The notes under the pieces: model-generated
Databases searched by the model: none
The model's input: only the letters and a program-made list of their open reading frames with translations
What the model was told of the DNA's origin: nothing
Part shown: one piece after another, positions 3,130 to 31,612 of the stretch
Numbering within the stretch: the first letter of the stretch is position 1
Layout of the letters: every line of letters begins with the position of its first letter
Made by a program: the position numbers and the translations under genes
Source of the DNA: Colwellia sp.
GTDB lineage: Bacteria > Pseudomonadota > Gammaproteobacteria > Enterobacterales > Alteromonadaceae
Direction: 5' to 3'
Length of the DNA stretch: 34,224 bases
NCBI GenBank assembly: GCA_016765685.1
Contig: JAESPR010000088.1
Location: forward strand, 1 to 34,224

Positions 3130-3861
3130 CTATTTTATTTGAACGTAATAAACACTGACTTTATCGGTAACTTGCCATGAACATAGAGTGTTCTTAGGCA
3201 TAAATACCGCATCACCCACGGTAAAGATATGTTCAACGTTGTCTTCGTTAGTGCAAGTTAAACTGCCTTCATTGATGATCATAAATTCGTGATAAGGAAA
3301 TGACATTGGCTTAGTCTTAAATACATTGCTTGTCCAAATTCCTGAAAAAAATCGCCCTTGTGAATCTTGATACAAAGCTTGTTTTTGATGACCATCACTA
3401 GTCTGTGAAATGAGAGTAGTTGTTTTAACTTGCTCGTTAAAATATATAATATGCTCATAGGTCGATTTAGCCGGAATAATTTCGTCAGGATGCTGTGAAA
3501 TAATAAAAAACTTACGTAAATAACCCGTTTGCTGCCATTGGCAGTCATATCCTTTGGGAATGACAAAACCTTCACCAGCGATAACCGTTTCTAATACGCC
3601 GGTTTGATTATTTTTAATGACCGCTTCACCGTCGAGTATAAACATGAACTCGTCACAAGGATAATTGCCAGCTGTCTCGGTCATATCGGTGGTATCCCAC
3701 ACACCGACAAAAAGCCCTTCATCCTCATCCTCATCTTCATAAAAAAGATGAGTATGCTGAGTCGGTATAGCTGATACAAACAACTCCGCTTCAAGCTCAT
3801 CGGCGTTATCACCAAAACCTTCAGGGTTAGGGTTAAGTTTAATAATTTTACTTTTTGCCAT
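3130..3861 (-). CDS. two-domain cupin protein (bicupin)
   Basis: A 243-residue cytosolic protein built from two cupin halves, roughly residues 40-120 and 160-240. Each half has the enzyme-type cupin pattern: residues 66-85 give NYPCDEFMFILDGEAVIKNN, then AGEGFVIPKG; the second half gives FPYHEFMIINEGSLTCTN, then VGDAVFMPKN. This is the DUF861/Cupin_3 style seen in ureidoglycine aminohydrolase-like proteins, but the metal-binding histidines are sparse, so catalysis is uncertain. An acidic run, EDEDEDEG, lies near residue 42. It is the last gene of the leftward aminotransferase-mmsA unit, 88 bp behind mmsA, which suggests an accessory role in that catabolism. The exact function is unknown. Confidence 0.75.
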   Translation of the reverse strand: MAKSKIIKLNPNPEGFGDNADELEAELFVSAIPTQHTHLFYEDEDEDEGLFVGVWDTTDMTETAGNYPCDEFMFILDGEAVIKNNQTGVLETVIAGEGFVIPKGYDCQWQQTGYLRKFFIISQHPDEIIPAKSTYEHIIYFNEQVKTTTLISQTSDGHQKQALYQDSQGRFFSGIWTSNVFKTKPMSFPYHEFMIINEGSLTCTNEDNVEHIFTVGDAVFMPKNTLCSWQVTDKVSVYYVQIK

Positions 3862-9723: not shown

Positions 9724-9833
9724 AAATAGAATTTAATATTTTGTAGTAACTGTTATTTTACGTGAAATTTCAGTTGAGAACAGTGTTTTAGTTCAATATT
9801 ACTTAAAGGGCGTAGCTATTATGTTAGTAACAT

Positions 9834-9859
9834 TATACTATAGCGTACAAGTGTACGCT
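9834..9859 (+). promoter_or_regulatory. candidate FabR-type operator with adjoining -10 box, upstream of fabB
   Basis: AGCGTACA-ag-TGTACGCT (9842-9859) is a perfect 8-bp inverted repeat with a 2-bp centre, which agrees in form with what I recall of the FabR (YijC) operator before fabA and fabB in gammaproteobacteria. A -10-like TATACT lies at 9834-9839, so a start site would fall inside the palindrome. The -35 region is poor. The distance to the fabB start is about 225 bp, unusually long. A second -10-like TATAAT occurs at 10003-10008, closer to fabB. Confidence 0.6.
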
Positions 9860-9894
9860 GGATTATATGTGCAGGTTAATCATTGCTAAGCAAA

Positions 9895-9970
9895 CAAGAT
9901 TAAGCAGGCAAGGTTAAACAAGATTAAGCAAGCAAGGTTAAGCAGACAAGGCTAAGTAAGCAAGACTAAA
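9895..9970 (+). repeat. 14-bp tandem repeats in the fabB leader
   Basis: Four units of the form CAAG[AG][TC]TAAG[CT]A[AG][AG] (9895, 9919, 9933, 9947) alternate with two shortened 10-bp units (9909, 9961). They fill the space between the FabR-like palindrome and fabB. No open frame is supported here. Confidence 0.8.
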
Positions 9971-10082
9971 CAAGTAATACCAGTTAAGGGGAAATTTCCT
10001 TGTATAATGCCCCCGTTTTAAAATTTTTATGTTTTTTAATAAAGCTTTTAATAAAGTTTTCAACAAAATAATGGTTATTAAA

Positions 10083-13887: not shown

Positions 13888-16800
13888 ATGCAAAAATTAT
13901 TACACCTGTGCCTTCGGCAGGTTTTTCTTAGCATATCAATAGTTAGCATACTAATAACTAGCATTATTACCACAGGTATAATGACGATTAGTGTACCCGC
14001 TTATGCACAAGAATTCTTTGCACAAGAGCGTGGCATTCGTATGCGCGGCCCTAAAAGCAGTGATGTTTTCCCTTATGATCGTTATGGGCCTTTAACCTCG
14101 CGCGATACCTTGTGGAGAATTGCATTAACGGTTCGTCCGGATAGCCGTTTAACTGTTTATCAAGTAATGCAAGCCTTGTATCAAGCTAATCCTAATGCTT
14201 TTGTTGATAGTAATTTTAATCATTTGGTTGAAGGTCAGTATTTAAAAATTCCCTCATTTGATCGCATGATGTCGGTCAATAGACAAGTTGCTCAACAAAA
14301 ATCGGATGAAGACGAAAAAATTTGGCAAAAGAAGCAACCTAAAAAGGCTAATATAAAATTAGTAGCAGCGGCAGAAAATGTTAATAAAAAAGATTTAGAT
14401 ATTGTAAAAACAGCAATAAATGAACAATTAAAAAAGATAGATATAAAGCAGCAAGCGCGTTTAGAAAACATTCAAAATGATGTTTTAGATTCAATAGACG
14501 GTTTACAAACCATCTTAAAAGAAAACGAAGGTTTACGTCAGCGTTTATCATCCTTTAATAGTCAATTAGGCTCTATGCAAAAAGAGGTTGCTAAAAACGA
14601 AGAAATTAAGCTACAAATGGATGACATGATCAAATTGCAGCAAGCTCTACTGTCGAAAGCACAAGCAAGAGAACAAGAACTGCTTTTAGAAAAAGAGCAA
14701 GCAGCATTAGAAAAAAACGATATTTTTTCGAGTTCATGGTTTACGGTGCTAATGTCTACTTTGCCAGCAATATTACTACTAGTAGTTTTTGCACTTATAT
14801 TCAAACGAAGAAAGGTTGACACCGGTTCAGCAGAAACCTCGATGGCAGAAAAACCAGCAAAAAAATCTCCCTCTGAGAAGGTAGTTGAAGAAGAGCCCCA
14901 AGCTCCAATAAGTGTAGAAGATGAATTATCACTCGATGATGAACTATCCCTAGATGACGAGCTGTCTCTTGATGATGATTTATCAATTGATCTTCTTGAA
15001 GATGATGATGAAGATGATGTTATTCACCTTGATGACGATGATGATGACGCTCTAGATGATCTTGATGACTTAGACGATATCTTGCTAGATGATTCAGAAG
15101 AACTTGACGGTGGTGAATTAGACCAAGGTGACTTAGATTCTTTACTGATGGAAGTTGATGATGCGGATGATGAGTCTTCAACTGATGAAAGTGAAGCGTT
15201 AACAGATAATCAATTAGATCAAAGTGATTTAGATGATCTACTAGGAGATCTTAGTGATGATGATCTGGACATTGAAGAAGATTCTTCAACACCAAGCGCA
15301 GAGCCAGTAGAAGAAGACGCTCAAGCTGAAATAACCGATCCTGATGATATTGATGCCTTGCTTGAGTCCATGGATGTTGATGAAGCAACACCTACTCCGG
15401 CGGCAGAGGCGGAACCTGAACCAATAGCAGAAGAAGACGCTCAAGCTGAAATAACCGATCCTGATGATATTGATGCCTTGCTTGAGTCTATGGACGTTGA
15501 TGAAGCAACACCTACTCCGGCGGCAGAGGCAGAACCTGAACCAATAGCAGAAGAAGACGCTCAAACTGAAATAACCGATCCTGATGATATTGATGCTTTG
15601 CTTGAGTCCATGGATGTTGATGAAGCAACACTTACTCCGACGGTAGAAGCGGAACCCGAACCAATAGCAGAGGAAGACGCTCAAACTGAAATAACCGATC
15701 CTGATGATATTGATGCTTTGCTTGAGTCCATGGATGTTGATGAAGCAACACCTACTCCGGCAGCAAAAGCAGAACCTGAACCAATAGCAGAGGAAGACGC
15801 TCAAACTGAAATAACCGATCCTGATGATATTGATGCCTTGCTTGAGTCAATGAATATAGAGGAAGCTGAACCTGCAGCAAAAGCAGAACCAATAGCAGAG
15901 GAAGATGCTCAGACTGAAATAACCGATCCTGATGATATTGATGCTTTGCTCGAATCAATGAATATAGAGAAAGCTGAACCTGCAGCAGAAGCCGACCCAT
16001 TAGAAGAGGAAGACGCTCAAACTGAAATAACCGATCCTAATGACATTGATGCCTTGCTCGAATCAATGAACATAGAGGAAGCCGAACCTGCAGTTAAAGC
16101 CGATCCGTTCGAAGACGAATACGCTCAAACCGAACTAACCGATCCCGATGATATTGATGCTTTATTAGAATCAATGAACATTGATGTACCTGATCAGAGT
16201 TCGGCTACGGTTAAAGAAGATACACCGGAATACATTGCTCAAAAAAATCTTGAAATATCTGATAATTCCGCTGATGTTAATCAAACGAATGTTAGTGAAA
16301 ACAAAGAAAAAATTGAAAGTTTAACCGAAGAATATGTCGCCCCTTTATTATCAGCCGATTTTAGTGATATTTTAGCTAAAACAGCAGCAGATGAGCTAAT
16401 TGGGCCTGAATCGACTCAAGAAAGTACAGATTTGGTGGCAGAAGAAGACTTTGATATTGATGCACTCATTGCTGATGCTGGACAATCAACTGAGTATGTA
16501 ATTGAAAAAGAACCAAGCGTATTAGAGGAAGAGTCATATGATATAGGTGATGACTTAATTTCGGAGACTTTTGATGAAAATACTCTAGCAGAATTATTGA
16601 ATGATGAATCTGAACTTGCAGTTGAGTTATCGCCTGATTTTTCAGATCAAAATGTGCTTGCTGATCTCCTCAATGATAATGAAGCAGGTACCGATAACCA
16701 AGTTTCAGAAGCGAATGAAATAAATGATATTCAAGAATTAGATAATTTAGATTTTGATGAACTGTTAGCAAATATTGAAGAAGAGTCTAGTATTGCTAAT

Positions 16801-25006: not shown

Positions 25007-25804
25007 TTAAGTGATCGTTAAATTATTAGTTGGATTACCACTATGAAATTTAAAATCATCATCGGGTGTGCTGATTAGTTCAGCTTCAATTTTGCCAAAA
25101 TATTCAAGACGTTCTTTTATATCTCTATCATCGCCTGCTACTTGTGCAGCCAACGCTAAATAATCTTGATAATGGCGAGCCTCTGAACGAAGTAATGAGA
25201 CATAAAACTTGTTTAAATCATTATCTAATAATGGAGCTAGTTTAGCAAAACGTTCACATGAGCGAGCTTCTATATACGCCCCAATGATTAATTTATCAAT
25301 TAACGCCTCAGGTTCATACGTACGAACGTGCGTTAGCAGCCCTTTAGCATAACGACCTGCGGTTATATTTTGATACTCAATTCCTCGTTGGGTCATAATT
25401 TCTAGCACTTGATAAAAATGGTGCAACTCCTCCTTAATTAACAAGATCATTTTATCAACTAAGTCTTGAGTAAATGATAATGGTATTTTATTAGGTGTGG
25501 CTTTGAGCAAGATAGATTTTGATAACTTAGGTGTTTGACCAAGGCTAGCAAGATCACCCTGTTTTTTATAAATAAAGTCTTCGTATGGCTTGAACCAAGC
25601 TAGTAACTCTTTACTACTACTTTTATCTATTGCATATTTTCGAATTAAAAATAGTGCACTTTGCCCTGCTTTTAACTCACAAATGAGATGATCAATTAAG
25701 ATAATAGGCAAGTTCTCAGGCTTCTTAGCCTCTTCAATCCACGCTTGAGGTGTTTCACACTTTAAAAAAGATAAGATTGGCGCTAATAATTGCGTAGTCG
25801 ACAT
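25007..25804 (-). CDS. miaE: tRNA-(ms2io6A37)-hydroxylase
   Basis: A 265-residue non-haem di-iron monooxygenase that hydroxylates the isopentenyl group of ms2i6A37 in tRNA. The four-helix di-iron ligands are visible: E43 in ICELKAGQSA, E126 and H129 in the first ExxH (EELHHF), E179 in YIEARSCERF, and E208 with H211 in the second ExxH (SEARHYQDY). Length fits the family. The ATG at 25804 has only a weak GAAG upstream. The small 96-residue gene follows directly. It faces away from the chemoreceptor gene. Confidence 0.93.
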   Translation of the reverse strand: MSTTQLLAPILSFLKCETPQAWIEEAKKPENLPIILIDHLICELKAGQSALFLIRKYAIDKSSSKELLAWFKPYEDFIYKKQGDLASLGQTPKLSKSILLKATPNKIPLSFTQDLVDKMILLIKEELHHFYQVLEIMTQRGIEYQNITAGRYAKGLLTHVRTYEPEALIDKLIIGAYIEARSCERFAKLAPLLDNDLNKFYVSLLRSEARHYQDYLALAAQVAGDDRDIKERLEYFGKIEAELISTPDDDFKFHSGNPTNNLTIT

Positions 25805-25928: not shown

Positions 25929-25950
25929 AAAAAAGGCGGATAAATCCGCC
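25929..25950 (-). terminator. orphan hairpin terminator oriented leftward
   Basis: GGCGGA (25935-25940) and TCCGCC (25945-25950) form a GC-rich hairpin with a 4-base loop; on the minus strand it is followed at once by six T (25929-25934). It lies between two divergent genes (miaE and the chemoreceptor), where no gene is left to terminate. The rest of the 336-bp spacer 25805-26140 shows no recognisable gene. Confidence 0.6.
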
Positions 25951-26103
25951 CTTATTTTATGAAGAACACGCAATATTTAGGCTTGCTTGGTATTCGTCAT
26001 TAGGTACTAGCTATTCTTATGATAACTAGGGAGTCTGAATTAACTTGGCTAGATCAATTTGTTAAAAGTGATAAGTCGTTAAATAGTTAATTAGTGTCTA
26101 TAG

Positions 26104-26141
26104 TTAGAGGAGTTTTTCGAAAAATCATAGGAATCCTCTGA
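26104..26141 (+). promoter_or_regulatory. leader hairpin that could mask the chemoreceptor start
   Basis: AGAGGA (26106-26111) is complementary to TCCTCT (26134-26139), and the pairing can extend by a G-T wobble to the A of the ATG. The loop holds the palindrome TTTTTCGAAAAA and the likely ribosome site AGGA (26129-26132). Pairing would put the start codon at the edge of a stem. Confidence 0.35.
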
Positions 26142-28087
26142 TGAATCAATGGTTAAAAAACGTCAAAATACGTCATGCATTAATCGCTATCATTACGGTG
26201 TCACTATTAACGTTGTCACTTGCAGGAATACTGCTGTCAAATAATGCTTTTACTAATGTTTCAGAAAATAGCATTGAATCAGAACTTTTACCTAATCAGC
26301 TTGCAAAAGTTGCCGCTAGAATTAATCTCCAACTGAGTACACCTTTAGTGCTTTCTAAAGCGATAACTCAAAATAAATTTTTAATTGACTGGGCATTAGC
26401 GGGAGAGCCAGATAACAAGCAGCAAGAAGTGATTGATTTTTTAGCCTTAATGAAAACAAAAAATAATGCTCTTACTGTTTTTTGGGTATCAAATGTTTCA
26501 CAAAATTATTTAAATCAAGATGGCGTTCTGAAAAAAATCAACCCTGATAAAGATAAATGGTTTGACGGTTTCTTAAATAGTGATAAACCTTTTGAAATAG
26601 CCTTTGACTTTGAAGAAGGTACTTCTCAATTAACAGCGTTTGTGAATTATAGGGTTGCTGCCCAAGGAAAAAATCTTGCTATAGCCGGTTTAGGCTATAG
26701 CGTAAGTGAAATTAGTGCAGATATATTATCAAATAAAATCGGTGAAACAGGATATGTCTTTGTCACAGACAATGATGGCAATGTTATTATTCACCCTTAT
26801 TTAAGTTCAGTGAAAAAGCATAAGCTAAGAAGTTTTGATGGTTTTGCTAAAGTATCCAGTAAATTATTACAAAAAAGCGCAGATTATGTTTTTGATAAGG
26901 TGAATTATAAAAGTGTAGATTATTACGTTGCCAGTGTTGGTGTACCTGAGCTGAATTGGAAAATTATCGCTATGTTACCTGTAGATGAGCCGATGTCTGC
27001 TGTTCGAGCCGCTTTAAGTCAAACCGCTTTATTAAACATTATATTAGCGATAGGCTTTGTGCTGCTAATGGTGTCAGTTGCGAATAGAATCACTAAGCCC
27101 ATTGTTGATATTGGCGACAGACTACTTGAAATGGCTAAAAGTGGTGGTGATTTAACCCAACAATTAGACGCAAATCGCGGTGATGAATTAGGTCGATTAG
27201 CGCAAGGTTTTAATGCGATTATTGAAAAAGTGCACAATATTATGCTTGATATTAAAACTACAGAGCAGGTGATGGAGTCATCATTCGCTAAACTAGCCGC
27301 TATTGCTGATGATGTTGATGGCTGTGCAAAATCTCAGCAGGCTGAGTCTGACTCGGTTGCTGCGGCAACGACGCAAATGAATCAAAGTATTCAAGAGGTG
27401 AGTAATTTAGCAGGCAGTACCGCCGATAAAGCGGAGTTAACTCAATCGCAAGTAGAAGATATAAACAAGCAAGTGGGCGATACTAATCAAGTGATGCAAC
27501 AGTTAGATATTAGTAATATTTCCACCCAAGAGAAAATACAAGCATTGGCTGATCAAACTCAAACGATAAGCTCTGTTATAGATACAATCAGTAGTATTTC
27601 GGAGCAAACTAACTTACTAGCATTAAATGCAGCTATTGAGGCAGCAAGGGCTGGTGAGCAAGGGCGTGGCTTTGCTGTTGTTGCCGATGAAGTAAGATCG
27701 TTAGCCGCAAGAACTAAAGATTCTACACGTGAAATTAATGACGTCATTGAAAAACTACAACAACAAGCTCAAGAAACGGTTTTAGCGATGGCTCAAAATA
27801 GTGAGCTGGCAAAAGAGGGTCTTGAAAAAACCAATACCGCTAGCGAGGCATTAAAAGGGGTGGTAACTGAAATTAATGAAATTACTAATATGAACACCTC
27901 AGTTGCTACCGCCACTAATCAGCAATCAAGTGTTATTGGTGAGTTAAATGTTAATATAACGCGTATTGCTGATATGTCTGCTCAAGTAGCTGATCTTTCA
28001 GAAAATACCAAAGAGGAATTACAAGATTTAGAGGTGCAAAAAGTACGTTTAGCCGCGCTAGTTGCCCAATTTAAAACTAAGGCATAA
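26141..28087 (+). CDS. methyl-accepting chemotaxis protein (dCACHE-HAMP-MA)
   Basis: A 648-residue transmembrane chemoreceptor. Helix 1 is about 11-31 (HALIAIITVSLLTLSLAGIL); residues 40-280 form a periplasmic double-CACHE ligand domain (WFDGFLNSDKPFEIAFDF, GETGYVFVTDNDGNVIIHP, PELNWKIIAMLP). Helix 2 is about 293-313, HAMP about 314-368 (NRITKPIVDIGDRLLEMA), and the cytoplasmic methyl-accepting coiled coil runs from 375. The CheA/CheW-binding hairpin tip is clear at 487-525 (SEQTNLLALNAAIEAARAGE, then QGRGFAVVADEVRSLAARTK). No C-terminal CheR pentapeptide is seen. The ligand is not deducible; dCACHE domains of this kind often bind amino acids or small organic acids. AGGA eight bases upstream supports the start. 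Confidence 0.95.
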   Translation: MNQWLKNVKIRHALIAIITVSLLTLSLAGILLSNNAFTNVSENSIESELLPNQLAKVAARINLQLSTPLVLSKAITQNKFLIDWALAGEPDNKQQEVIDFLALMKTKNNALTVFWVSNVSQNYLNQDGVLKKINPDKDKWFDGFLNSDKPFEIAFDFEEGTSQLTAFVNYRVAAQGKNLAIAGLGYSVSEISADILSNKIGETGYVFVTDNDGNVIIHPYLSSVKKHKLRSFDGFAKVSSKLLQKSADYVFDKVNYKSVDYYVASVGVPELNWKIIAMLPVDEPMSAVRAALSQTALLNIILAIGFVLLMVSVANRITKPIVDIGDRLLEMAKSGGDLTQQLDANRGDELGRLAQGFNAIIEKVHNIMLDIKTTEQVMESSFAKLAAIADDVDGCAKSQQAESDSVAAATTQMNQSIQEVSNLAGSTADKAELTQSQVEDINKQVGDTNQVMQQLDISNISTQEKIQALADQTQTISSVIDTISSISEQTNLLALNAAIEAARAGEQGRGFAVVADEVRSLAARTKDSTREINDVIEKLQQQAQETVLAMAQNSELAKEGLEKTNTASEALKGVVTEINEITNMNTSVATATNQQSSVIGELNVNITRIADMSAQVADLSENTKEELQDLEVQKVRLAALVAQFKTKA

Positions 28088-28092
28088 TACCT

Positions 28093-28120
28093 CGTTAACC
28101 GTTAACCGTTAACCGTTAAT
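28093..28120 (+). repeat. four-copy 7-bp tandem repeat (CGTTAAC)
   Basis: Units CGTTAAC at 28093, 28100 and 28107, then CGTTAAT at 28114. The last unit adjoins the lpxH tail fragment; intact lpxH has one and a half similar units (GTAACCGTTAAT) just past its own stop, so the repeat probably grew from that flank. Confidence 0.85.
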
Positions 28121-28182
28121 CAATTTAGCGGTTTATTTAATAATTCCATACCAGTCGAGGTGACTTTAAGCCATGCACCCTG
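28120..28182 (-). pseudogene. duplicated, diverged 3' end of lpxH
   Basis: Minus-strand translation reads [20 protein letters not shown] then TGA; intact lpxH ends [20 protein letters not shown] then TAA. Similarity continues past the stop through ATTTAGC..ACCGTTAA. About 58 of 71 bases agree between 28112-28182 and the lpxH end. Of nine differing sense codons, six are synonymous. No start or upstream part of the gene is present here. The fragment marks the left edge of the Rieske-permease block, with intact lpxH on its right. Confidence 0.85.
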
Positions 28183-28256
28183 TGGCATTTCTATTTCGTA
28201 TCAACAGCATACGGTTAGGCATTTGGAGTACTTTACTAAAATAATAAGCTAATGTA

Positions 28257-29345
28257 ATGATTTTAAATGAAATAGTAGAACAGTACAATGCAACTTTACC
28301 ACTAGAACGGGCTATTACACCACCTAGTGCTTGGTACACCAGCTCAGATATTGCCAAGTTAGAACAAGACTCTGTGTTTAGTGACAATTGGTTAGTGGCA
28401 ACACGAAAAGAGCTATTGCAAGAGTCAGGTCAATATGTGGCTACAACGGTTGCAGGTCAACCTATCGTTATTGTACGTGGCGACACCATTAAGGGCTTCT
28501 ATAATGTTTGTCAACATCATGCTGCGCAGGTTATGGAAACTGGGCAAGGGTGTACTCGCGCTTTAAATTGCCCTTATCATGGCTGGACGTACAAGCTTGA
28601 TGGTTCATTGGCTGCTACGCCACAATTTGAAGCTGCGGAGGGTTTTGATAAAACTAATCATGGCTTAAAGGAAGTTAGGGTTGAAGTTTGGCAACAATGG
28701 GTATTTGTTTGTTTGAATAATGATGCTCCGCCTTTAAGCGAGTATTTAGGGACGTTATATAGCCAACTTGATCCATTAAACTTAGATAAAATGCGTTTTC
28801 ATCAGCGTATTAGTTATGACTTAAATTGTAATTGGAAAGTGTACGTTGACAATTTTTTAGACGGTGGTTATCACGTTCCTATTTTACACAAAGGGTTGAA
28901 TAGTGCGTTAGACGGCAAATACTACAAAATAGAAGTTACTGACAAATATTGTTTACAGTCTTGTCCTACCAAGCAGCGCGACAACGATTTTTCACAGGTA
29001 AGAACGGGCACAGCACGATATTATTGGCAGTATCCTAATTTAATGATTAACTGTTACGACGCTATTATGGGGATCATTATTGTTGAGCCAGTTGCCGTTG
29101 ATAAATGCAAAATTATCTTTGAATATTACTTTGACGATAATCATCCGTTAATCGACGAAGACTTTAAAAATAATAGTGTTGCTGTTGCCGATAAAATTCA
29201 AGATGAGGATGTGGCAATTTGTCTTTCAGTACAGCAAGGTCTTGCATCAAAGGGATATGAAACAGGTCGGCTTGTACCAAGCAAAGAAGCCGGTGAACAT
29301 TTGTTCCATAAATTATTATATAAAGATCTGAAAAACCATTTATAA
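28257..29345 (+). CDS. choline monooxygenase-like Rieske oxygenase
   Basis: A 362-residue Rieske non-haem iron oxygenase. The Rieske 2Fe-2S ligands are C85-x-H87 and C105-x2-H108 (CQHHAAQV, CPYHGWTY). The mononuclear iron site is D202-x3-H206-x4-H211 in DNFLDGGYHVPILHKGL, and the third ligand region is QDEDVAICLSVQQGL. The N-terminus (PLERAITPPSAWYTS) and C-terminus (GYETGRLVPSKEAGEHLFH) closely follow plant choline monooxygenases and bacterial quaternary-amine oxygenases. A likely job is oxidation or demethylation of choline- or betaine-like compounds; the reductase partner is not in this window. It lies in the block bounded by the lpxH tail copy and overlaps the stop of the convergent permease gene. 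Confidence 0.88.
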   Translation: MILNEIVEQYNATLPLERAITPPSAWYTSSDIAKLEQDSVFSDNWLVATRKELLQESGQYVATTVAGQPIVIVRGDTIKGFYNVCQHHAAQVMETGQGCTRALNCPYHGWTYKLDGSLAATPQFEAAEGFDKTNHGLKEVRVEVWQQWVFVCLNNDAPPLSEYLGTLYSQLDPLNLDKMRFHQRISYDLNCNWKVYVDNFLDGGYHVPILHKGLNSALDGKYYKIEVTDKYCLQSCPTKQRDNDFSQVRTGTARYYWQYPNLMINCYDAIMGIIIVEPVAVDKCKIIFEYYFDDNHPLIDEDFKNNSVAVADKIQDEDVAICLSVQQGLASKGYETGRLVPSKEAGEHLFHKLLYKDLKNHL

Positions 29346-30665
29346 CTCGTTTCTATTTAATGCAGACTGGTTAGCTTGGTATTTTGTGAAGAAAAAAACC
29401 GGAATGCCGGCTATCAACAATATAAATCCCATGACTATTGTCTCAGTGCCTAGATTCGCAATTATCCAGATTGAAAATAGCGTTGCTATTGTGGTAATAA
29501 CGGCACTGAAAGGTGTTAACCCTAGTGGATTTCGATTTTTTAATGACATGGTAAAATGAGCCAAGGTACACAGTAAGTAGGGAATAACTGTTGCAAAGGT
29601 GGACAATAAAATGACTAACGTAAATTGATCGACTAAGCTTTCATTAAAATTCATTAGCACGAGCCCCGACACCAATAATGTTGAAATTATAATGCCTTTA
29701 GCCGGCACCTTTCGTTTAGATTTCTCACCAAATACTTTTGGAAATAGGCCATCCCTTGATGCAGCCATCGGCACTTGTCCAAGGCACAAAGTCCAACAAT
29801 TAAGCGCTCCTAAGCATGATACTACCGCGCACACGCCAATAAAATAATAGCCCCAATCACCCCATAAAATAGCTGCAGCATCGGCAAATGGAGCATTTGA
29901 TTTAGATAAAACTGCTGGCTCAATTAACCCCATAACTGAAATTGACCCTAGAATATAAACAAACGCGCAAATTCCGGTACCGAGCAAAGCGGCTTTAGGT
30001 ACATTTTTTTCTGGGTCGATTACATCACCAGCAACATTATTGGCAGTTTCTAACCCTAAAAATGACCACATTGTCAGTGCAGACGCAGCTGAAACTGCAG
30101 AGTAAGAGCTCATCTCAGTCAAATTAAACGGTACAAAATGGTCGGTGTTTAAGTAAAAACAACCAACCAACGCAACTAAAAATAAAGGGATAAATTTTAA
30201 TATGGTGGTAACAAGCTGGAGTTTCCCTACTTCTTTTAAGCCACGTAAGTTAACCCAAACTAAAGACCATAAAAATAATAAGGTTGTCAGCGCAGCTATG
30301 TCGCTTTGTTGCTTTAATATTGGAATAAATACCGATAGGTAACTGACCAATGCAATAGAAATAGCGGCATTGGCTGCTATCATGCAAATCCAGTAACCCC
30401 AGCAAACAGAAAACCCCATAAAATCACCAAATGCTGCTCGGGTATAAATATAAGAGCCGCCAGAGCCTCTTACGTATTTCGACAAACTGGCAAATACATA
30501 AGCTAAGGTAAGGGAGCCCACAGAGGTAAATATCCAGCCGACGATACTAATGCCACCAAAGGAAGCAAGTGCTGATGGCAGTAAAAAAATGCCACTACCA
30601 ATCATACCGCCAACCACCATAGACGTAGCTGTCCATAATCCAAAACCCGATTTTTTTACTGACAT
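29340..30665 (-). CDS. APC-superfamily amino-acid permease
   Basis: A 441-residue inner-membrane transporter with about 12 hydrophobic helices. The first helix carries the APC signature GGMIGSGIFLLPSALASFGG, where substrate binds in AdiC-like antiporters; helix 6 contains SALTMWSFLGLETANNVAGDV. The style is that of the AdiC/PotE/CadB branch (basic amino-acid or polyamine exchange), but substrate is not fixed. The gene ends inside the last codons of the convergent Rieske gene (6-bp overlap), so both arrived or evolved as a tight pair. A joint role in uptake and oxidation of an amine is inference. Confidence 0.9.
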   Translation of the reverse strand: MSVKKSGFGLWTATSMVVGGMIGSGIFLLPSALASFGGISIVGWIFTSVGSLTLAYVFASLSKYVRGSGGSYIYTRAAFGDFMGFSVCWGYWICMIAANAAISIALVSYLSVFIPILKQQSDIAALTTLLFLWSLVWVNLRGLKEVGKLQLVTTILKFIPLFLVALVGCFYLNTDHFVPFNLTEMSSYSAVSAASALTMWSFLGLETANNVAGDVIDPEKNVPKAALLGTGICAFVYILGSISVMGLIEPAVLSKSNAPFADAAAILWGDWGYYFIGVCAVVSCLGALNCWTLCLGQVPMAASRDGLFPKVFGEKSKRKVPAKGIIISTLLVSGLVLMNFNESLVDQFTLVILLSTFATVIPYLLCTLAHFTMSLKNRNPLGLTPFSAVITTIATLFSIWIIANLGTETIVMGFILLIAGIPVFFFTKYQANQSALNRNEL

Positions 30666-30823
30666 TTAACCTGTCCGTTTATAGTTTTTATACCCTTAAG
30701 ATAGTATTTTTGTTTCAAAAACACTAATAGTCTTGTTATAGATCTAATTTATGAGCAGTTACTAATTCGCAGTGCAAAATGATGGTTGGCTTTACGTATA
30801 GCTATTAAGCCCGTAACCGTTAA

Positions 30824-31612
30824 TTAATTTAGCGGTTTATTTAAGAGTTCTATGCTGGTTGGGGTTACTTTCAGCCATGCGCCTTGGTCATACCAATCAC
30901 CTAACACAATGCGTTTAGCTGTTTTGCCATTTGTCATTAATTCATGTATTGCTGGTCGGTGAGTATGACCGTGTATCATTAGTTGGCATTGATGTTTTTC
31001 AAGAGATTTCACCACTTCGTTTGGTGTTACGTCCATGATGTCTTGAGATTTAATTGCTGTAGCAGCAGCACTTCGTTGGCGATAATTGGCGGCAATTTTT
31101 TTACGAACAAAAAGCGGTAGGCTTTTGATTAACGCTTGCCACCACCATGAACGTGATTTTTGTCGAAATTTTTGATAAGCAATATCACGAGTACACAAGG
31201 TATCGCCATGCATAATGACCACATTTTGTCCGTATAAATCAATTAAATCTACTTCAGGCAATAAAGTCATTGTTGATTTTATTGCGAATTCCTTACCGAG
31301 TAAAAAGTCTCTATTGCCATGAATGAAATAGATTTTAGTTCCAAAGCTCGCTAGTGTTGTCAGTGCTTTGGCAATTGTCGCTAGATAGGAACTGTCATCG
31401 TCATCGCCAATCCAAGCCTCAAATAAATCACCGAGGATATAAAGCGTTTGTGCTTGTATTGCGTCAGTTTTTAAAAAACGCAAAAAACAGGCGGTAATGT
31501 CAGGCCTGTTTTGCGCTAAATGTAAATCAGCAATAAAATAAGTGACTTGCGGTTGCTGGTCACTTAAAAACTGAGGGCTTGCAGGCAGAGTGTCTGAAGG
31601 TAAACTACTCAA
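30824..31612 (-). CDS. lpxH: UDP-2,3-diacylglucosamine diphosphatase
   Basis: A 262-residue peripheral membrane enzyme of lipid A synthesis that cleaves UDP-2,3-diacylglucosamine to lipid X and UMP. The calcineurin-like metal sites are complete: D29 and H31 (FIADLHL), D62 ([13 protein letters not shown]), N100 ([13 protein letters not shown]), H135 (IMHGDTLCT), and H214/H216 ([12 protein letters not shown]). It is about 20 residues longer than E. coli LpxH at the N-terminus. The start overlaps the end of ppiB by 8 bp, implying translational coupling. Its last 21 codons are copied at 28120-28182. In E. coli ppiB-lpxH is followed by purEK; here it is followed by the Rieske-permease block. Confidence 0.96.

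Follow-up and report, generated by a model that had tools for sequence, protein, structure and literature searches.

How did the 3' end of lpxH come to stand twice, in the same direction, on either side of two metabolic genes? The question is raised by contig JAESPR010000088.1 of assembly GCA_016765685.1, from Colwellia sp., a stretch of 34,224 nucleotides (nt) that was analysed whole and is referred to here as the window. It is contig C58 of a draft that totals 3.0 Mb in 128 contigs, with 76.85% completeness and 0.18% contamination. In the window a diverged copy of the end of lpxH is separated from the intact gene by a block consisting of a Rieske-type oxygenase gene and an APC-family permease gene. 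With little more than even confidence, we read this arrangement as the trace of an import by recombination at the end of lpxH, between diverged copies of that gene and within what looks like an insertion hotspot. The elements on which the argument turns are as follows.

30824-31612, minus strand: lpxH, UDP-2,3-diacylglucosamine diphosphatase, an intact open reading frame above the cut-offs of NCBIfam TIGR01854 and NF003743, listed from TTG as its putative start
30814-30886, minus strand: intact-gene copy of the repeat, comprising the last 20 sense codons, the stop and 10 nt 3' of lpxH
28110-28182, minus strand: diverged copy of the lpxH 3' end (the fragment), which, read in lpxH sense, begins with 42 diverged nt (28182-28141) and ends with 31 near-identical nt (28140-28110)
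28257-29345, plus strand: Rieske-type ring-hydroxylating oxygenase (Pfam PF00355, PF00848)
29340-30665, minus strand: APC-family amino acid / polyamine permease (Pfam PF13520; 336 bits against TIGR00905, where 409 are needed), convergent to the oxygenase, with overlapping 3' ends

The comparisons drew on 39 genomes of the genus, 36 of which, including the source strain, have lpxH (leaving 35 congeners with the gene), and the family-wide searches on 395 genomes; the identities of MiaE, LpxH, Ppi, the methyl-accepting chemotaxis protein (MCP), the Rieske oxygenase and the APC permease rest on family searches, while PurF, CysS, YIP1 and SMALL96 are presumptive, partly descriptive labels.

The two copies of the lpxH end form a direct repeat of 73 nt (28110-28182 and 30814-30886) that is 82% identical and encloses the oxygenase and permease genes; searching the draft of the strain itself recovers it at an expect value (E) of 2.2e-14 and gives no third copy at E <= 0.001 in any of the 128 contigs. 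The homology breaks off sharply at 28182 and, at the other end, 10 nt past the lpxH stop. An earlier inspection of the letters alone (the sequence-only reading) had proposed just such a direct repetition around these two genes, and this is confirmed with minor corrections: the copy that it placed at 30824-30889 should stop at 30886, where the homology ends, and the 21 codons that it counted include the stop, which leaves 20 sense codons. Its counts of changes were also correct, in that 13 of the 73 positions differ and that, within the 63-nt coding part, nine of the 20 sense codons and the stop are altered, with six of the nine changes synonymous and the peptides differing at three sites (P/S, S/G and I/M). 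A control set of 47 stretches, 588 kb in all, combined the window with 36 stretches of the genus that bear lpxH or the block and with 10 more from genus and family; direct repeats with copies over 1.5 kb apart (E <= 1e-6) were limited in it to the window pair and one in congener G020. The latter, at 3180-3452 and 9744-10009 of stretch L065, measures 274 bp at 79% identity with 6.6 kb between the copies, and its first copy starts where a shortened SMALL96 match (residues 16-87, 56%) ends.

The differences between the window's two copies are clustered, with 12 in the first 42 nt and a single one in the last 31 nt. When lpxH 3' ends were compared pairwise among the 23 of 35 relatives that are in register (12 with a shifted end were dropped), 176 of the 253 pairs differed at 9-15 positions of the first 42 nt; two or fewer differences in the last 21 nt (mean 8.2) were seen in none of the 176. 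Set against each of nine near relatives, which are not independent of one another, the differences between the copies cluster in the first 42 nt and the sites at which both copies depart from the relative cluster in the last 21 (Fisher p 0.002-0.023). A tree of the first 42 nt joins the local lpxH to congener G031 (96/90) and leaves the fragment outside that pair; by identity over the same stretch the fragment is nearest G025, at nine differences as against 12 to the local lpxH. Together, the uneven spread and the outside placement suggest that the two parts of the repeat have different histories and that the upstream part is probably foreign, whereas the last 31 nt of both copies either are of recent common origin or have been kept alike by selection. 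The intact gene as a whole sits in a 14-row group of the LpxH tree with G030, G026, G031 and others (99/96), and comparison by eye with 13 near relatives gave no sharp step in identity towards its 3' end that would mark a breakpoint within it.

The sequence-only reading had argued further that the excess of silent changes betrays a fragment that diverged while part of a working lpxH in another lineage. The silent excess alone is not decisive. In simulations that took the local lpxH end as starting sequence, distributed 12 sense-codon changes and retained runs with 11-13 differences, three or fewer amino-acid differences arose in 21% of runs with six changes on the free fragment, in 10% with seven and in 4% with eight, and the states in relatives, judged by eye at the 13 differing sites, are mixed (local lpxH odd at five, fragment odd at six, two undecided). 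Divergence in another lineage's lpxH is nevertheless what the first 42 nt look like; over all 63 coding nt the local gene is the nearest, which leans towards the sister grouping that the same reading had named as speaking against itself.

The block, too, appears as an accessory of this place, as that reading had supposed: its only close oxygenase homologue in the genus belongs to G031 (88%) and sits elsewhere, adjoining a permease gene on a contig other than that of the G031 lpxH and next to a transposase-like gene (by eye).

28257-30727, no strand assigned: extent of the block common to the window and G031, 84% DNA identity

This homology covers the sequence from the start of the oxygenase gene to 30727, and the G031 block is free of lpxH sequence. 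A joint import of block and fragment from G031 was considered and set aside because the homology reaches no further than the oxygenase start codon on one side and a point some 60 nt upstream of the permease start on the other. Beyond the genus the two genes are again paired, the permease being convergent and adjacent to the oxygenase in nine of 11 loci; close oxygenases (E <= 1e-100) occur in 13 of the 395 family genomes, counting the source strain and G031. The best NCBIfam match of the oxygenase is NF058607, glycine betaine monooxygenase oxygenase subunit, far below cut-off at 128 bits of the 670 needed. At fourfold sites the block genes diverge from G031 by 0.446 and 0.443, and YIP1, LpxH, Ppi, CysS and PurF by 0.47-0.64 (pooled by hand, about 0.44 of 241 sites against 0.56 of 445); the divergence of the block, a little below that of the flanks, is in keeping with movement near the species split or later, but not with a recent one. 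Base composition does not set the block apart from its neighbours (GC 0.385 and 0.401), and in 46 loci with relatives of the MCP or the Rieske oxygenase, most with 1.5 kb of flank, none adjoins an lpxH except the window's own (L103).

The place that received the block is itself variable. On the far side of the fragment lie two further genes.

26141-28087, plus strand: MCP gene (dCache, HAMP and MCPsignal domains)
25007-25804, minus strand: miaE, tRNA hydroxylase (NF047790, above cut-off), inverted relative to congeners and xenologous

A comparison across relatives, proposed along with the sequence-only reading, was carried out and shows that the interval between miaE and lpxH differs between species. 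In all 34 congeners with both genes on one contig, miaE and lpxH are convergent; the gap between them, counted by hand between matched ends, is 10-212 bp in 30 of the 35 congeners with lpxH, and SMALL96 lies beyond miaE in 28 of the 34 stretches. G031 carries the two genes on two contigs, with miaE in its usual orientation to PurF, YIP1 and SMALL96. The window miaE has the reverse of its orientation in all 35 congeners with lpxH, and between it and lpxH stand the MCP gene, then the fragment, then the block. The displaced neighbour of lpxH is here the native miaE; purEK, which the sequence-only reading had named on the model of E. coli, was set aside in that role since miaE holds that place in congeners. 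The displacement, inversion and xenology of miaE had escaped that reading, as had the hairpin of the conserved part described below.

Four other lineages carry different cargo in or beside the same interval, its contents identified by eye: G025 has a 2.5-kb insert with mercury-resistance-like genes (L058 7741-10266), a 4.5-kb insert bearing a cytochrome c peroxidase-like gene is common to G028 and G022 (L051 5600-10105; L055 1756-6279), G005 has a 0.9-kb insert (L081 1758-2660), and in G031 a GGDEF-type gene follows miaE up to the contig end (L138 8017-9851). With conserved genes on its flanks and cargo that varies between genomes, the interval looks like an insertion hotspot of the genus and is a site of repeated exchange. 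No integrase was seen by eye in the congener inserts; the window contig has no match to Phage_integrase (PF00589), of which the draft has five on other contigs, and a profile scan of six window genes returned no recombinase; none of these searches was aimed at serine recombinases. Searched with their own lpxH and miaE ends, 34 congener stretches gave only matches of 13-26 nt, apparently spurious, as candidates for gene-end copies; this count leaves aside G031, whose contig stops 103 bp past lpxH.

Exchange has reached the flanking gene as well. In trees of 36 miaE, 36 LpxH and 29 PurF rows, the window miaE groups with G008 (97/92; path 0.29 as against 0.72 for the next), whereas its LpxH and PurF are nearest G030, G031 and G026; this disagreement marks the window miaE as xenologous, a replacement of the orthologue accompanied by inversion. 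A second discordant miaE clade unites G022, G028, G009, G027 and G004 (L055, L051, L070, L076 and L079) on a branch of 0.76 (100/100), and suggests that this tRNA-modification gene has been replaced repeatedly. Within these trees, miaE is discordant in the window and in the five-genome clade and LpxH is not discordant for the window. Inverted repeats were considered as the cause of the inversion, and among 25 pairs of 14-32 nt none was convincing. The MCP has its nearest relative, at 74%, in G085, of another genus of the family; its congeneric relatives in G005 (65%) and G021 (62%) lie on contigs other than those of their lpxH. Between the divergent miaE and MCP starts, where no gene ends, a terminator-like hairpin is found on both strands (window 25932-25953) and is perhaps a relic of an earlier gene order; farther off, at window positions 15306-16186, a 120-bp repeat, of which there is also a variant of 108 bp, recurs about six times.

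The locus resembles the hotspots described by Oliveira et al. in 2017 (PMC5635113) in its short interval between conserved genes, its genome-specific cargo, the absence of a visible integrase and the replacement of a flanking gene, here miaE, in more than one lineage. It differs in that those hotspots, in the parts of the account that bear on them, are described within species and clades, while the variation here lies between species of one genus, and in that the partial copy of a gene end present here goes unmentioned in those parts.

On the import reading, foreign DNA would have replaced the native miaE, bringing the inverted xenologous miaE, the MCP gene and, jointly or separately, the Rieske-APC block. 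Congener DNA would have paired with lpxH and carried its cargo into the interval, one end being resolved by homology in lpxH and the other closed by an illegitimate joint. The intact lpxH would have been retained, and beyond the block a second, chimeric 3' end would have remained, whose first 42 nt descend from the lpxH of a different lineage and whose last 31 nt have a recent origin in common with the local gene. The homologous anchor in lpxH, the illegitimate second joint, the congener donor and the order of events are all inferred; what the sequences show directly is the repeat with its unevenly spread differences, the xenologous miaE, the other location of the block in G031, the varied cargo of relatives and a contig on which no tyrosine integrase was found. 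A process of this type, homology-facilitated illegitimate recombination, was reportedly described by de Vries and Wackernagel in 2002, with one end anchored by homology and the other joined without it, and could give an insertion beside a partial copy; we know of no report of it in Colwellia. In transformed Streptococcus pneumoniae, duplications, or merodiploids, can arise when the incoming DNA is in part repeated in the chromosome (PMC3784515), though in the portion of that work drawn on here these are large tandem duplications between repeats, as opposed to a 73-nt gene end. Competence was rejected as support for transformation: a ComEC-type domain occurs in 39 of 39 genus genomes and also in 10 of 14 controls, and is therefore uninformative.

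Several points weigh against this history. Both copies share the last 31 nt, unlike the product of one interspecies crossover, so that an additional conversion or template switch is needed, and the foreign signal is confined to 42 nt. A change-point permutation on the copy pair alone reaches only p 0.038. The fragment and the local lpxH as sisters are not rejected by the approximately unbiased (AU) test (p 0.12 on 42 nt, at a cost of 3.0 log units; p 0.42 on 63 nt); over 63 nt the local lpxH comes nearest to the fragment (50/63, the best of the 35 relatives reaching 46), and no better match than the local gene turned up as a donor of the fragment among the 395 family genomes. Finally, the conserved part forms a hairpin, and selection could therefore account for its identity.

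28111-28133, plus strand: terminator-like hairpin of nine pairs with a 5-nt loop and a T-rich tail, 23 nt past the MCP stop
28093-28119, plus strand: CGTTAAC heptamer in 3.9 tandem copies, lying between the fragment and the stop of the MCP gene and reaching into one arm of the neighbouring hairpin

The last 31 nt of the fragment contain this nine-pair stem on the plus strand, convergent to lpxH, and the stretch folds better than 199 of 200 shuffles; the sole difference between the copies in these 31 nt falls in the loop. An identical stem is present in the intact copy at 30815-30837, where 33 of 200 shuffles fold as well and the terminator scan lists nothing; over the region the scan finds 10 terminator-like sites, as against a mean of 5.3 in shuffles. 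If the fragment serves any function now, it is probably that of a transcription terminator for the MCP gene, and it may have been kept as such, in which case selection on the hairpin could mimic part of the mosaic.

Local duplication combined with selection on the hairpin is the strongest rival, which we consider a serious possibility, though a rather unlikely one. The end of lpxH would have been duplicated on the spot during or before insertion of the block, and the fragment would then have decayed except for its 31-nt part, constrained as MCP terminator here and by coding for the C-terminus in lpxH. The closeness of the fragment to the local gene over 63 nt (50/63, as against 46 at most in the 35 relatives), the sister relation that was not rejected, and the preserved stem, with its lone difference in the loop and its fold better than 199 of 200 shuffles, are all as this account would have them, and the fragment's private changes of P to S and S to G sit where near relatives mostly agree. 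Decay of a local copy fits less well with coding positions 33 and 40, at which the fragment has the majority state and the local lpxH the minority state found in two of nine near relatives, G031 among them; by eye, five of the 12 sites that differ within the first 42 nt show the local lpxH in the minority, as against none in its last 21, despite six differences from G031 there.

Site-specific integration is improbable. It would have a tyrosine recombinase acting in trans at the end of lpxH, with the 31-nt inverted-repeat core as attachment site and the fragment as the displaced or element-borne end. The model is prophage e14 in icd of E. coli K-12, an element with a putative integrase gene of its own, intE, whose insertion left a 165-bp copy, icdC, with 12 changes and two conservative amino-acid replacements, as given in the portion of the report used here (PMC11148124). 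As in icd, the insert stands at the 3' end of a gene that stays in frame, a directly oriented spare end lies beyond it, and the differences are mostly silent; in contrast to e14, it is made up of two metabolic genes without any recombinase, and over their last 31 nt the copies are near-identical. That core, with one difference in 31, inverted 9-nt arms around 5 nt, unlike downstream and diverged upstream flanks, has the look of an attachment site. The duplicated 3' end around the insert and the intact gene are thus in place, yet neither an element-borne integrase of the tyrosine type nor related elements at the same site were found: the five Phage_integrase matches of the draft all lie away from this contig, the core is absent elsewhere in the 39 genus genomes at up to three mismatches, the other cargo of the interval comes without an lpxH-end copy, and the G031 block is not flanked by the core. 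A more speculative variant, to which we give slightly less credence still, takes the hairpin at the lpxH stop as a cryptic attachment core at which integrase-less metabolic cassettes with a borrowed lpxH end are inserted in trans, the gene being restored each time; if true, the end of an essential gene would double as a landing site. Least probable of all is an assembly or binning artefact joining unrelated contigs at a repeat: the draft is in 128 contigs and 76.85% complete, but its contamination is 0.18%, PurF and LpxH, on opposite sides, place with the same congeners, and an 18% divergence between the copies seems too great to mislead an assembler.

The proposal of an import at the end of lpxH thus gains from the accessory block, the variable interval and the mosaic repeat, even though the history seems more tangled than first proposed and the argument from silent changes is weak. 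A narrow search for lpxH integration sites and for islands, horizontal transfer and the pangenome of Colwellia found no report of this locus in those parts of the literature that it covered. The process is of a known kind and not a new kind of system. Its interest lies in leaving a readable scar in a gene-exchange hotspot beside the essential lipid A gene lpxH, with a concrete mosaic junction from which more genomes of the species could yield a stepwise history, and in giving an example of how a gene-end remnant can betray an import once no integrase remains.

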